Below, piece after piece: positions 2,624 to 57,084 of a stretch of 64,000 nt of DNA. The translations under genes and the position numbers were made by a program. How positions within the stretch are numbered: the stretch's first letter is position 1; every line of letters begins with the position of its first letter. The notes beneath the pieces were generated by a model, which saw only the letters and a list, made by a program, of their open reading frames with translations, had not been told where the DNA came from and did not search any database. Origin of the DNA: Marivita geojedonensis (GTDB lineage Bacteria > Pseudomonadota > Alphaproteobacteria > Rhodobacterales > Rhodobacteraceae); the NCBI RefSeq assembly GCF_002115805.1, contig NZ_JFKC01000001.1:248001-312000 (forward strand). Direction: 5' to 3'.

Positions 2624-3708
2624 AGAAGATGCCCTGACTTGCGCGCCTTGGTGGCGAGATAGTCTGTATTGTGCGGGTTTTCCCCGACTTTCAGCGGCAC
2701 ACGTTCAGCGACGGTGATGCCCTGTTTCTCCATCATCGCAATCTTGGCCGGATTGTTCGTCATCAGCCGGACCGACCCGAACCCCAGCTTGCGCAGCAGT
2801 TCCGCGCCGATGCGGAAATCCCGTTCGTCATCTTCAAAGCCCAACCGGTGATTGGCCTCGACCGTGTCGAACCCCTGATCCTGCAGGGCATAGGCACGCA
2901 TCTTGTTGGCGAGGCCGATCCCGCGCCCTTCCTGATTGAGATATAGAAGAACGCCTTCGCCGGCCTCACCCATGGCCTCGAGGGCCGCATTGAGCTGTGG
3001 TCCGCAGTCGCATTTCAGACTTCCCAGAAGATCGCCCGTGAAGCATGCCGAGTGCAGGCGAGCAAGAACCGGTTTCACCCGGTCGGGATGGCCGATTTCG
3101 ATGGCGTAGTGCTCTTCCGATCCATCTTCGGGACGGAAGACGTGCAGGCGGGCGTTCTGTGCCGCGCGCAGTGGCACCCGCGCGGCGACAACCTCTTCAA
3201 ACAGAACGGAGGCTCCCAATCGTGGCGCAGCCGTGTCGGGATCGATCCTCGTGAGTGCATGATCAGATGCAAATTCTGCAGCATCCTCAACCGGGGCAGT
3301 AACGACCGCAGGCAGGAGCCGCGCGGACTTGGCAAGCGTGACCGCCAACCGGTGCAACTGCGCGTCACCGTCACGCCGGATACGCAGCGGTCCCTTCATC
3401 GGATGGCTCAGATCATCCGCTGGATCAGCGACAGCCTGCACCCATTCGAGGGTCGCGTCCTTTGGCAAGGCCACCCGCGCGATGTCACCGTCGTAAGCCG
3501 GCGCCTTGAGGGTCGTCGCGCGGCGCCCTGTCAGAACAAGATCGACATCGGGGCCAAGCGCGATCACGTCGGCCAAACGCTGTGGGCCCAGAGACTCCAC
3601 AGACAGCACCAGCAGCCCATGATCCGATCCGAGAACCACCGGCACACCCATGCGCAGATCAGCCCGCGCGCGAGCCAAAAGATCGGTAATGTCGGGTGAG
3701 AGCGTCAT
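2620..3708 (-). CDS. ribA: GTP cyclohydrolase II with N-terminal extension
   Basis: 362 residues from the ATG at 3708. Residues about 170-360 are a full GTP cyclohydrolase II: RLHSACFTGDLLGSLKCDCG carries the zinc-binding C-x10-C-x-C cysteines, then LYLNQEGRGIGLANK and TNNPAKIAMM. It converts GTP to 2,5-diamino-6-ribosylamino-pyrimidinone phosphate, the first step of riboflavin synthesis. The first 165 residues are not needed for this fold. They roughly resemble the placement of a RibB domain, but I cannot see the acidic RibB motif (DDEDRENEGD-like), so DHBP synthase activity is not supported. It heads the leftward operon with the L,D-transpeptidase, UDG and sseB genes, and is divergent from the response regulator. 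Confidence 0.93.
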   Translation of the reverse strand: MTLSPDITDLLARARADLRMGVPVVLGSDHGLLVLSVESLGPQRLADVIALGPDVDLVLTGRRATTLKAPAYDGDIARVALPKDATLEWVQAVADPADDLSHPMKGPLRIRRDGDAQLHRLAVTLAKSARLLPAVVTAPVEDAAEFASDHALTRIDPDTAAPRLGASVLFEEVVAARVPLRAAQNARLHVFRPEDGSEEHYAIEIGHPDRVKPVLARLHSACFTGDLLGSLKCDCGPQLNAALEAMGEAGEGVLLYLNQEGRGIGLANKMRAYALQDQGFDTVEANHRLGFEDDERDFRIGAELLRKLGFGSVRLMTNNPAKIAMMEKQGITVAERVPLKVGENPHNTDYLATKARKSGHLL

Positions 3709-3866
3709 GTGTGCGATGATAACCCAAGGGGGGCATTGCAACAAAAGACCCCGATTTATGAAACAATTGCCCCCTTCATACACGAGGCCGTGAAACACTT
3801 GCAGCAATTCTTGCCCGCGTGCAACGCCTTGCCCATGTCACGGGAAAGCGATGGAGACACACCGAC

Positions 3867-4553
3867 ATGGCACAGCTCAAGAATATCCTTCTGGTCGATG
3901 ACGACGACGACCTGCGCGAGGCGCTTGCAGAGCAACTCGTGATAACCGAAGACTTCGAAGTGTTCGAGGCCGATTGCGGAACCGCCGCGATGGGTCGTGT
4001 AAAAGAACAGCTTTACGATCTGATCATCCTTGACGTGGGCTTGCCAGACACAGACGGGCGCGAACTATGCCGGCTGATGCGTAAGCAGGGGGTAAAAGCG
4101 CCTGTGCTGATGCTCACGGGTCATGACTCCGATGCCGATACGATCCTTGGCCTTGACGCCGGCGCCAATGACTATGTCACCAAGCCGTTCAAATTCCCGG
4201 TGCTCCTCGCTCGTATTCGTGCGCAACTGCGCCAGCATGAACAATCCGAAGACGCGGTCTTCTCTCTCGGACCGTATACGTTCAAACCGTCGATGAAACT
4301 GCTGGTGACGGAGGATGACAAGAAGATCCGCCTGACCGAGAAAGAGACAAACATTCTCAAGTTTCTCTACCGTTCGACCGACGGTGTGGTGGCCCGCGAC
4401 ACTCTGCTGCATGAAGTCTGGGGGTATAACGCCGGTGTCACGACGCACACGCTGGAAACCCATATTTACCGACTGCGTCAAAAGATTGAACCGGATCCCT
4501 CAAACGCGCGTTTGCTGGTTACGGAGTCGGGGGGCTACCGGCTGGTGTCTTAA
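3867..4553 (+). CDS. OmpR-family response regulator, orphan
   Basis: 228 residues from ATG 3867, with a GGAG about 11 bases upstream; a longer frame from 3819 is possible but lacks support. Receiver domain 5-120: the acidic run at D11-D15, phospho-acceptor D56 in LIILDVGLPD, and the conserved Lys in YVTKPFK. The C-terminal winged helix (about 130-228) has LTEKETNILKFLYR and a recognition region around THTLETHIYRLRQKI. It should be a phosphorylation-controlled DNA-binding regulator. No histidine kinase gene adjoins it. The receiver start resembles CenR-type alphaproteobacterial regulators, but I would not assign that name without a tree. It is followed by the FNR box and terminator at 4568-4696. 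Confidence 0.9.
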   Translation: MAQLKNILLVDDDDDLREALAEQLVITEDFEVFEADCGTAAMGRVKEQLYDLIILDVGLPDTDGRELCRLMRKQGVKAPVLMLTGHDSDADTILGLDAGANDYVTKPFKFPVLLARIRAQLRQHEQSEDAVFSLGPYTFKPSMKLLVTEDDKKIRLTEKETNILKFLYRSTDGVVARDTLLHEVWGYNAGVTTHTLETHIYRLRQKIEPDPSNARLLVTESGGYRLVS

Positions 4554-4567
4554 GACCTTCGTCGATT

Positions 4568-4607
4568 TTGATTCAGATCAAAGAAGCATGATACGCGTAT
4601 CTTTAAT
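4568..4607 (+). promoter_or_regulatory. Perfect FNR-type box with downstream -10-like element
   Basis: TTGATTCAGATCAA at 4568-4581 is an exact TTGAT-N4-ATCAA palindrome, the consensus for FNR/FnrL (and very close to Dnr/Nnr) regulators. TTTAAT at 4602-4607 would serve as a -10 element. With a start near 4613-4616, the box centre (4574.5) falls at about -39 to -41, the spacing of class II FNR-activated promoters. The site lies 15 bases after the response regulator stop, and the gene on the other strand ends at 4697. It therefore precedes no protein gene, which points to a non-coding transcript. Confidence 0.6.
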
Positions 4608-4613
4608 CCGGAT

Positions 4614-4697
4614 ATCAACAGTTCCCGTCGCATATGCGGGTCATCATATGCACCTCCCTGTTGGACCTGGCCCCGGATTTTTCCGGGGTCTTTTTTC
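4614..4697 (+). ncRNA. Candidate FNR-controlled small RNA
   Basis: This is the stretch between the inferred start of the FNR-type promoter and the T-run of a strong intrinsic terminator, giving an RNA of about 80-85 nt with no coding potential. It contains a short GC hairpin around CCCG...CGGG (4624-4640), then an unpaired pyrimidine stretch CACCTCCCT (4651-4659) able to pair with Shine-Dalgarno sequences. The terminator stem begins at 4669. FNR-dependent small RNAs (E. coli FnrS) and CCUCC-loop sRNAs of alphaproteobacteria are established precedents. This particular RNA is inferred from sequence only. The alternative is that the terminator simply ends the response-regulator mRNA and the box is fortuitous. 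Confidence 0.45.
4669..4696 (+). terminator. Strong intrinsic terminator
   Basis: GGCCCCGGA (4669-4677) pairs with TCCGGGGTC (4682-4690, one G-T pair) around TTTT, followed by six T (4691-4696). It would end the response-regulator transcript and any transcript from the FNR-type promoter at 4568-4607. Confidence 0.9.
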
Positions 4698-5236
4698 TAG
4701 TAAAGACTGATTTCGCGTACCGACACATCGGCTTCGAAGTCATCGCCATATGCAACAATCGCAAGGCTGTTTACCTCTGACGCGGAAAACATCGCTGGAA
4801 TGCCCATATGCGACGGACTGAACATATCCAGAGGAATGTCGATGGTCTGCCAGCTGACGGGTGCCACGAAAGACGCGCGGTATGAATGCCATACGCGGGA
4901 CAACCGCGGTGTCTTGAGGAACACATGATACCGTGCGCCATTTCCCTTGACCGTGAGGCGCAATCCTTGGACCGAGTCAGGCCAGCTTTCGGAAAATCGT
5001 CGGCGCACCTGGATGAAACCGCCGTTGTTATCGGTGCTGACCTGTCCCCGAAGATGGATCATTGCGTCAAGTCCCTGTCCGATGATCCCAGCCGTACCCG
5101 TCGAAACACCGCCCATGACGCTGTCTGAGACATAGGTCCAGCGCGCATTTGCATCGCCGCTGAAATCTTCGAATGTGGTTTCCGCAACCACCTGTCCTGC
5201 AAGCATCAGACCACCTACCAGCGTTTTCCATCCCAT
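4697..5236 (-). CDS. CIA30-like protein, exported
   Basis: 179 residues. It starts with a signal peptide (residues 1-18, ending around VVAE). It continues with TTFEDFSGDANARWTYVSDS and VMGGVSTG, the hallmark of CIA30 (complex I intermediate-associated protein 30), and ends in the jelly-roll-like strand pattern of that family. In mitochondria the homologue NDUFAF1 helps complex I assembly. Bacterial members are usually annotated by similarity only, and an exported form cannot act on the cytosolic arm directly. It is a single gene, convergent with the response regulator and followed leftward by no terminator of its own; the pnp terminator lies just upstream at 5267-5292. Confidence 0.82.
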   Translation of the reverse strand: MGWKTLVGGLMLAGQVVAETTFEDFSGDANARWTYVSDSVMGGVSTGTAGIIGQGLDAMIHLRGQVSTDNNGGFIQVRRRFSESWPDSVQGLRLTVKGNGARYHVFLKTPRLSRVWHSYRASFVAPVSWQTIDIPLDMFSPSHMGIPAMFSASEVNSLAIVAYGDDFEADVSVREISLY

Positions 5237-5266
5237 GACGGGGACTTAGCTCATTGTGCAAATAAA

Positions 5267-5292
5267 GAAAGCGCCCCCGAAGGAGCGCTTTC
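5267..5292 (-). terminator. pnp terminator
   Basis: GAAAGCGC pairs with GCGCTTTC around a 10-base loop. Read on the minus strand, it is followed by TTTATTT. It lies 27 bases after the pnp stop. Confidence 0.88.
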
Positions 5293-5318
5293 ATTTCAAC
5301 AACTTGACAAGACGCGAA

Positions 5319-55737: not shown

Positions 55738-57084
55738 ATGACAGACACGCTTGAATACCTGACGCAAAGCCTGTTGCAGCGCGCCAAGGAGGCCGGGGCC
55801 GATGCGGCTGACGTGCTGGCAGTGCGGGGCAACTCCATATCCATCGACGTGCGCAACGGGGTCCTGGAACAGGCCGAGCGGTCAGAGGCGACGGATATCG
55901 GGCTGCGGGTGTTCGTCGGGAAACGGGTCGCAAACGTGTCTTCCTCGGATGTGCGGGCCGACAGCCTTGCCATTATGGCCGAACGGGCTGTGGCAATGGC
56001 GCGCGAGGCGCCGGAAGACCCCTATGTGGGATTGGCAGATCCGGCTCAGTTGGCTGAGAACCGCAAGGCCGAGTGGCTTGAACTGTACGATCCGACACCA
56101 GAACCAGCACCCGCAGACCTGGAACAGGACGCACGCGACGCCGAAGCGGCGGCTTTGGCCGTTGAGGGCATCACGCAGGTGTCGGCCTCGTCCGCCGGAT
56201 ATGGGTCGCAAGAGGTCTATCTTGCTGCAAGCAATGGATTTTCCGGCGGCTATCAGCGCACTTCGCGGTCCACGTCCTGTGTGGCCATCGCCGGTTCCGG
56301 CACTGGCATGGAGCGGGACTACGACGGAGATCAGCGGATTTTCCAAGCAGATCTGCGGTCGCCTGCCGAAATTGGGCGGACTGCTGCGGAACGTACACTG
56401 GAACGAATAAACCCGCGCAAGCCCAAGACGGGGGCGTATCCGGTGCTGTTCGACGAGCGGATTTCGTCGTCACTGATCGGGCATCTGTTGATGGCGATCA
56501 ACGGGGCTGCGATTGCACGGCGGTCCTCCTGGGCCTTGGACCTGCTCGGGAAAGAGGTTCTACCGCAAGGGCTTAGCCTTACCGAAGACCCGCACCGCGT
56601 ACGGGTTGGCGGATCGCGCCCGTTCGATGCCGAAGGCTTGGCGACGCAGAAGCGTGACATCGTCAAGGACGGTGTGCTGACGGGCTGGACGCTCGATCTG
56701 GCCACGGCGCGGAAACTGGGGCTCGAATCCACGGCAAACGCAGCGCGCGGGACGACGGGTGGGCCATCACCCAGCGTGTCGAATGTGACGCTTTCTCAAG
56801 GCGTTAAGGATCGCGCGGCGCTGATTGCCGACATGGGGACCGGGCTTGTCGTGACTTCAATGATCGGGTCGACGATCAACCCGAACACCGGCGACTATTC
56901 GCGTGGTGCGGCCGGGTTCTGGGTCGAGAATGGCGAAGTCGCGTACCCGGTCAGCGGCGTGACGATTGCCGGGAACCTGATCGAGATGCTCAAGACAATT
57001 GTCCCGGCCAATGACGCCCGTCCGTGGCTCAGCCGCGTGGTGCCGTCGCTCTTGGTGGAAGGTCTGACGCTTGCCGGAGAGTGA
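55738..57084 (+). CDS. pmbA: TldD/PmbA family metallopeptidase subunit
   Basis: 448 residues from ATG 55738, after GGAGG. The PmbA/TldE pattern is present: AADVLAVRGNSISIDVRNGV, RVFVGKRVANVSSSD, VLFDERISSSLIGHLLMAIN, GLATQKRDIVKDGVLTGWTL, and TLSQGVKDRAALIADMGTGL. With TldD it forms a heterodimer that processes peptides such as microcins and CcdA; TldE itself lacks the HExxxH zinc site, as here. tldD is not in the window. Its stop lies inside the cysQ start region (14-base overlap). Confidence 0.94.
   Translation: MTDTLEYLTQSLLQRAKEAGADAADVLAVRGNSISIDVRNGVLEQAERSEATDIGLRVFVGKRVANVSSSDVRADSLAIMAERAVAMAREAPEDPYVGLADPAQLAENRKAEWLELYDPTPEPAPADLEQDARDAEAAALAVEGITQVSASSAGYGSQEVYLAASNGFSGGYQRTSRSTSCVAIAGSGTGMERDYDGDQRIFQADLRSPAEIGRTAAERTLERINPRKPKTGAYPVLFDERISSSLIGHLLMAINGAAIARRSSWALDLLGKEVLPQGLSLTEDPHRVRVGGSRPFDAEGLATQKRDIVKDGVLTGWTLDLATARKLGLESTANAARGTTGGPSPSVSNVTLSQGVKDRAALIADMGTGLVVTSMIGSTINPNTGDYSRGAAGFWVENGEVAYPVSGVTIAGNLIEMLKTIVPANDARPWLSRVVPSLLVEGLTLAGE

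Follow-up and report, generated by a model that had tools for sequence, protein, structure and literature searches.

SorX is a small RNA that has been established experimentally in R. sphaeroides and forms the Rfam family RF02784; it was formerly named RSs2461 (PMC5036791, in part). In the parts of PMC6238624, PMC9438474 and PMC3320616 that describe it, SorX follows the OmpR-type gene RSP_0847, is co-transcribed with it from an RpoHI/HII promoter, and is converted by RNase E from a 116-nt precursor into a 75-nt product that represses potA. The same sources, together with part of PMC5036791, characterize it as RNase E-released, Hfq-bound and induced by singlet oxygen, and SorX has become a reviewed case of a small RNA cut from the 3' end of an mRNA. 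RSs0019 and RSs2461 were both reported to have an FnrL ChIP-seq site in the putative promoter region; the regulatory effect of FnrL on RSs2461, an RNA noted to be without sequence similarity to FnrS, could not be established (PMC4263372, in part). A 2021 paper placed SorX under RpoE/RpoH sigma factors, not FnrL (PMC8307010, in part), and no link between FnrL and SorX was found in the SorX and RSP_0847 text of PMC6238624 or in the available part of PMC8307010. The literature search found no paper on an FNR-dependent anaerobic small RNA of Alphaproteobacteria. E. coli FnrS, an FNR-driven antisense RNA made at low oxygen, is alike in the action proposed below, but homology to it is unsupported, as SorX alone was matched at the Rfam gathering threshold in the DNA studied here.

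A second R. sphaeroides RNA, SorY, has the same CCUCCCUGUUGGACUU core followed by a terminator and scored 43.6 bits, just under the cut-off of the SorX model. It differs in its 5' part, in its place elsewhere in the genome and in having its own promoter (PMC6238624, in part); the place of the match (G051:C4:1632636-1632725, L184) fits the 5' end that the same source reports for SorY. No box above 8/10 was found in the 90 nt before this match. Related loci were seen among L164-L185. Since the core and the terminator type are common to SorX and SorY, the two may be members of a single family in which the 5' parts were exchanged.

The sorX Locus of Marivita geojedonensis

The window, that is, the whole stretch of 64,000 nucleotides of Marivita geojedonensis DNA that was analysed, contained a single Rfam match when all families were searched at the gathering threshold. 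This match was SorX, on the forward strand at 4623-4696, with 71 bits against a cut-off of 46.6 (E = 2.2e-15), and it covered the full model (positions 1-73 of 73). SorX sits 69 nt downstream of the stop of an OmpR-type regulator gene, in the 3' region, as it does behind RSP_0847. By family identity and gene order, the stretch 4568-4697 is identified as the sorX gene (Table 1). The RNA as a whole is beyond chance, both by the Rfam E value and by its fold z-score (-4.4). The terminator alone is not, as a consensus scan of 3700-5300 found two terminators against 1.5 expected; the same scan found no sigma-70-type promoter, against 0.7 expected. An earlier, sequence-only reading of this DNA had proposed a real small RNA in a gene-free gap, and both proposals hold, the gap being bounded by the regulator stop at 4553 and by a convergent CIA30 gene, although the identity of the RNA as SorX had gone unrecognised. 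The idea of a new, undescribed small RNA was dropped, as the RNA is RF02784. The perfect TTGAT-N4-ATCAA box, the TTTAAT hexamer and the terminator on which that reading was built were all found in place (4568-4581, 4602-4607 by direct reading, and stem 4669-4690, respectively).

Table 1. Features of the sorX locus in the window (positions of the whole stretch).
Feature	Position	Strand	Basis and remarks
OmpR-type response regulator gene	3867..4553	+	Pfam Response_reg and Trans_reg_C; corresponds to RSP_0847 of R. sphaeroides; gives rise to SorX in its 3'-UTR form; ends at 4553
FNR/FnrL box TTGATTCAGATCAA	4568..4581		Read directly
Conserved -10 region, consensus [CT]ATCTTTAA	4598..4606	+	Columns 30-38 after box start; TA at 4604-4605 = -12/-11 of a class II promoter
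Predicted FnrL-dependent start	4614..4617	+	Places the box centre at -39.5 to -42.5, with 4616 giving exactly -41.5; inferred from geometry
Mature SorX RNA	4622..4696	+	Rfam match covers 4623-4696; first base set at 4622 by comparison with the 5' end published for R. sphaeroides
5' hairpin of SorX	4630..4651	+	4630-4636 pairs with 4645-4651; covariation seen in the family alignment
Conserved target-pairing core CACCTCCCTGTTGGACC, anti-Shine-Dalgarno	4651..4667	+	Sequence and family alignment
Intrinsic terminator	4669..4696	+	Stem 4669-4690, then T run; presumably common to SorX and the regulator mRNA
CIA30-domain protein gene, convergent	4697..5236	-	Pfam; gap boundary, outside the system

RF02784 was matched in 282 of 295 genomes of the family to which the window belongs (232 above the cut-off) and in all 17 genomes of the genus, own genome included. 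Comparisons were made over family loci, genus loci and loci of the R. sphaeroides genus. The family set consisted of 145 of the best-scoring loci listed from the 282 matching genomes; all equally good core matches at a locus were counted as SorX copies, giving 154 copies, with two at each of nine loci. A homologue of the regulator was found upstream of 152 of the 154 copies (tblastn, identities 75-93%). One match of the family sample (G051:C4:2598225-2598299) lies within one base of the SorX 5' end published for R. sphaeroides at 2,598,224 (PMC6238624, in part).

The structure of the RNA was evaluated on 155 distinct sequences at nine consensus pairs, seven in the hairpin and two in the core. 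Of 1379 cells, 97% were paired, compared with 78% after shuffling, and on this comparison the 5' hairpin is backed by compensatory changes. The invariance of the core is partly a result of selection, because copies were placed by a core search allowing two mismatches. In the window CACCTCCCT was read directly at 4651-4659. The pairing segment pointed out earlier stands as a conserved anti-Shine-Dalgarno core, but its CCUCCC is part of the linker that joins the hairpin to the terminator and is not in a hairpin loop. That the stretch holds nothing but a terminator shared by two convergent genes, with no regulatory RNA, is hardly credible: the hairpin would indeed end the regulator transcript too, but the match to the whole Rfam model, the covarying 5' hairpin and a conserved core outside the terminator all argue against it, and this reading was dropped on the covariation of the hairpin.

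Conservation of the FNR Box

The strict pattern TTGATN4ATCAA occurs twice in the window, against 0.08 expected, and 15 times in the 4.3 Mb of the genome, where the reversed control pattern was not found at all. The second site of the window (TTGATGGCGATCAA, 56488-56501) lies by eye within a coding region. Within the genus the box before SorX was retained in 17 of 17 genomes, own included, of which 16 were perfect under TTGAY-N4-RTCAA and one scored 9/10; under the strict pattern 15 of the 17 were perfect. The sequence-only reading had offered loss of the box in close relatives, with the terminator kept, as its own refutation; instead, all 16 other genomes of the genus have the box, 15 of them perfect and one with a single mismatch.

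In the family set, a perfect TTGAY-N4-RTCAA was found within 75 nt before SorX in 42 of the 154 copies and a score of at least 9/10 in 50, whereas 2827 control windows of matched length, drawn from these loci, gave 0.11% and 0.43%, respectively. Loci at or under the cut-off of the SorX model, SorY included, served as a natural negative control; 24 were read and 17 share the core, none of the 17 having a box above 8/10. Judged by these comparisons, the box before SorX is not a matter of chance.

The -10 Element and the Predicted Start

The spacing of the box was examined in 46 aligned family copies, which are the 50 scoring at least 9/10 minus L101, L122, L133 and L044 (box less than 70 nt from the core); the position weight matrix and the alignment were built on the same 46 copies, and scoring was done leave-one-out. 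These copies share AG after the palindrome and a second block, roughly CATCTTTA, with its T and A at 36 and 37 nt after the box start, which correspond to -12/-11 if the box is centred at -41.5. The leave-one-out score of the -10 block exceeded 3 in 30 of 46 copies at the right offset and in zero to six at each of 16 other offsets. TA at +36 from the box start was present in 32 of 46, any other offset from +16 to +46 giving at most 10. At the mirror position on the minus strand TA was found in none of the 46, and a minus-strand promoter from the palindromic box was dropped for that reason.

A pattern requiring box and core, but not the -10, was also matched against named organisms, which gives spacing and names but not frequency. 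Of 115 distinct stretches among the matches listed, 70 had TTA at +35 to +37, while at 20 other offsets the count averaged 1.9 and never exceeded 15. Twenty-six of the 115 are identical to stretches already counted; of the other 89, 55 carry TTA. The genera among these listed matches include Ruegeria, Shimia, Tateyamaria, Roseovarius, Roseobacter, Marivita, Phaeobacter and Leisingera.

In the window the sequence has the geometry of a class II promoter, with the box at 4568-4581 centred near -41.5 and TA at 4604-4605. A start near 4614 had been suggested earlier, and this was close; placement of the -12/-11 TA at 4604-4605 by conservation puts the predicted class II start at about 4616 (4614-4617). 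For comparison, Fnr/Dnr sites of Dinoroseobacter shibae lie 39.5, 41.5 and 43.5 bp before the starts (PMC5398030, in part). If position 1 of SorX is set 30 nt upstream of the core, 33 of the 46 copies have their predicted start 0-4 nt ahead of it; in the window the predicted start is 7 nt ahead. Across the aligned copies, box and -10 thus stand at a fixed distance from one another, and their distance to SorX varies within narrow limits. Binding of FnrL at 4568-4581, activation and the start point itself are predicted from this arrangement.

The arrangement suggests that SorX, in this genus and in many genera of the roseobacter lineage, has two sources, namely the 3' end of the regulator mRNA and an FnrL class II promoter of its own, a reading to which a probability of about 0.78 was assigned. 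As SorX was published as a 3'-UTR-derived RNA, an FNR promoter would be a second source. This putative second promoter, which is conserved and well supported by the comparison, is apparently not described in the literature searched. Set beside R. sphaeroides SorX, the RNA of the window has the same family, core, terminator and place after an OmpR-type regulator, and possibly the same potA target. In R. sphaeroides the RNA is described as processed from the regulator mRNA (116 to 75 nt, RNase E) under RpoHI/HII and a good FNR box is absent, whereas the window has a perfect box, a -10 of the conserved type and a predicted start 7 nt before the Rfam start.

The Putative Regulator

The genome itself encodes FnrL; the protein scores 460.8 bits with the NF045989 equivalog model, whose cut-off is 300, and carries an N-terminal cysteine cluster. 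A genuine promoter answering to another Crp/Fnr protein (Dnr, a FixK-like protein or CrpK), with nitric oxide or something else as the cue in place of oxygen, is unlikely, though it is the strongest of the competing accounts. The genome holds seven matches above the HTH_Crp_2 cut-off, not all of which need be Crp/Fnr proteins; FnrL and Dnr regulators use one Fnr/Dnr site in Dinoroseobacter shibae (PMC5398030, in part), and CrpK and FnrL share sites in R. sphaeroides (PMC4263372, in part). However, the ChIP site published for RSs2461 belongs to FnrL (PMC4263372, in part), and rows 22-38 of the CrpK target table list RSs0019 but not RSs2461. A promoter under FnrL may also explain this ChIP-seq site, which was reported in 2014 without a known effect.

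Two-Copy Loci

Two SorX copies are present at nine family loci. Three of these (L135, L140 and L077) have a box, in each case on the distal copy only and beyond the terminator of the first copy; the TA of the -10 is present in two and absent in L135. The distal SorX of L077 lies 648 nt from the regulator stop, behind a frame of 121 codons. In the other six loci neither copy has a box. Tandem cores of the SorX type without an FNR box were seen at L042, L050, L059, L063, L109 and L114.

At three further loci (L101, L122 and L133) a perfect FNR-type palindrome at the end of the regulator gene abuts SorX, starting at -50/-51 from the core. These palindromes are too close to start SorX and are perhaps repressing or due to chance. 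A role of this kind could also be proposed for the site in the window, FnrL repressing or blocking read-through from the regulator so that the 3'-UTR form drops at low oxygen. Such a roadblock would suit both the place of the box between regulator stop and SorX and the three abutting palindromes, which are too near for a class II promoter. It would need no -10 at a fixed spacing, yet the -10 is conserved, and the distal copies at L135, L140 and L077 stand after a terminator; this account is accordingly rated as very unlikely.

Distribution Among Lineages

A score of 8/10 or less for the box was obtained for 104 of the 154 family copies, so that about two thirds are without a good box. In 30 of the 106 copies without a well-placed box the regulator stop is separated from SorX by 26 nt or less, which leaves no room for a promoter. 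When box presence was mapped on a tree of 149 rows, at least 30 changes were counted, at least eight of them forced by well-supported branches; the tree was built with FastTree from a single gene and leaves 62 of its 146 inner branches open. In the set with one copy per genus plus the window, 55 of 142 have the box, weak joint-profile matches counted. No box was found in the 20 tree-grouped rows of the clade on the R. sphaeroides side.

In R. sphaeroides itself the only candidate is a weaker TTGCGTGAGATCAA, accompanied by TATAAA at the class II distance, for which the predicted start is 2,598,196. This fits neither of the published 5' ends (2,598,182 and 2,598,224; PMC6238624, in part), and the weak site was dropped as a source of pre-SorX, the predicted start being 14 nt off. 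Upstream of SorX in 11 of 25 copies printed from the R. sphaeroides-side clade (L032, L042, L054, L059, L062, L066, L079, L095, L106, L109 and L119), a motif of roughly CTTATTGTTGCCNGAATC was seen, which is possibly a replacement promoter in this box-less clade.

The absence of the box from many copies and from the R. sphaeroides clade indicates that the proposed FNR control is a lineage-dependent second input. The sequence-only reading of an RNA made from an FNR promoter gains support from the conservation of box and -10, but it missed the 3'-UTR origin of SorX, and most of the sampled family copies lack the box. It could be held that SorX of the window is made solely by RNase E from the regulator 3' UTR and that the box is a leftover or has another role. 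This is the published route in R. sphaeroides, with RSP_0847 co-transcription, an RpoHI/HII promoter and RNase E (PMC3320616, PMC6238624 and PMC9438474, in part), and the 30 copies lacking promoter room agree with it. The exact spacing of box and -10 and the narrow spacing to SorX across genera are, however, unexpected of a leftover, and three loci carry the box on a distal SorX beyond the first terminator; exclusive processing is for these reasons considered improbable.

Proposed Dual Origin of SorX

Under the preferred reading of two sources, the stress route would run as in R. sphaeroides, by analogy: RpoH-driven regulator mRNA would read through and RNase E would cut its 3' UTR to give SorX. 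At low oxygen, FnrL would act on the box at 4568-4581 with the -10 at 4604-4609 and a start at about 4616, and the product would be an RNA of about 80 nt reaching the shared terminator, that is, SorX itself or a form a few bases longer at its 5' end. Either route would supply the CCUCCCUGUUGG core, able to cover ribosome-binding sites, in an antisense RNA of roughly 75 nt that is Hfq-bound in R. sphaeroides. The benefit may be a defence in place before the return of oxygen and light.

A wider and more tentative proposal, to which slightly less than even odds were given, is that in much of the family SorX is an FnrL-driven gene whose start coincides with the 5' end made elsewhere by RNase E. 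Lineages would have alternated between making SorX as a primary transcript and processing it from a 3' UTR, some would have split the two origins between two copies, and the RNA, known for its part in singlet-oxygen defence, would be stockpiled at low oxygen for re-oxygenation. If an oxygen-controlled promoter does exist in much of the family, control by anoxia and by photo-oxidative stress would be joined in one RNA, and the family would offer a natural, genus-by-genus series of a regulatory RNA passing between processed fragment and free gene.

Core Pairing and Candidate Targets

Pairing of SorX with potA was evaluated in the genome and in its relatives. In one potA-like gene of the genome (380 bits), a possible TTG start is preceded at 7 nt by AACAGGGAG, which has nine nucleotides complementary to SorX, whereas the better-scoring of the two potA-like genes above the cut-off (385.5 bits) has a longest SorX match of 4. 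Each of the five genus genomes read contains one potA-like gene that matches SorX over 7-10 nt; matches of at least 7 were found in 15 of 288 control windows. Counterparts in other genera gave 5 nt in seven loci, and one potA-like locus of R. sphaeroides gave 8. With matches of 7-10 nt in the genus but 5 in other genera, a SorX-potA pairing is suggestive for the genus of the window only. Pairing of a 5' leader CAACAG with CUGUUG of the core in the longer RNA, which would mask the core until processing, is not claimed, since AACAG is present in only 8 of 17 genus leaders.

A scan of the genome for ACAGGGAGG-N3-9-ATG gave 11 matches against one for the control, three of the 11 lying on SorX (two, at one place) or on a SorX-like locus (one). 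Elsewhere in the genome (L338, C1:587500-594500), two perfect FNR palindromes flank a gene cluster whose frames resemble, by eye, a sulfurtransferase, a cytochrome c and a small membrane protein, and one start in this cluster follows ACAGGGAGG, a complement of the SorX core.
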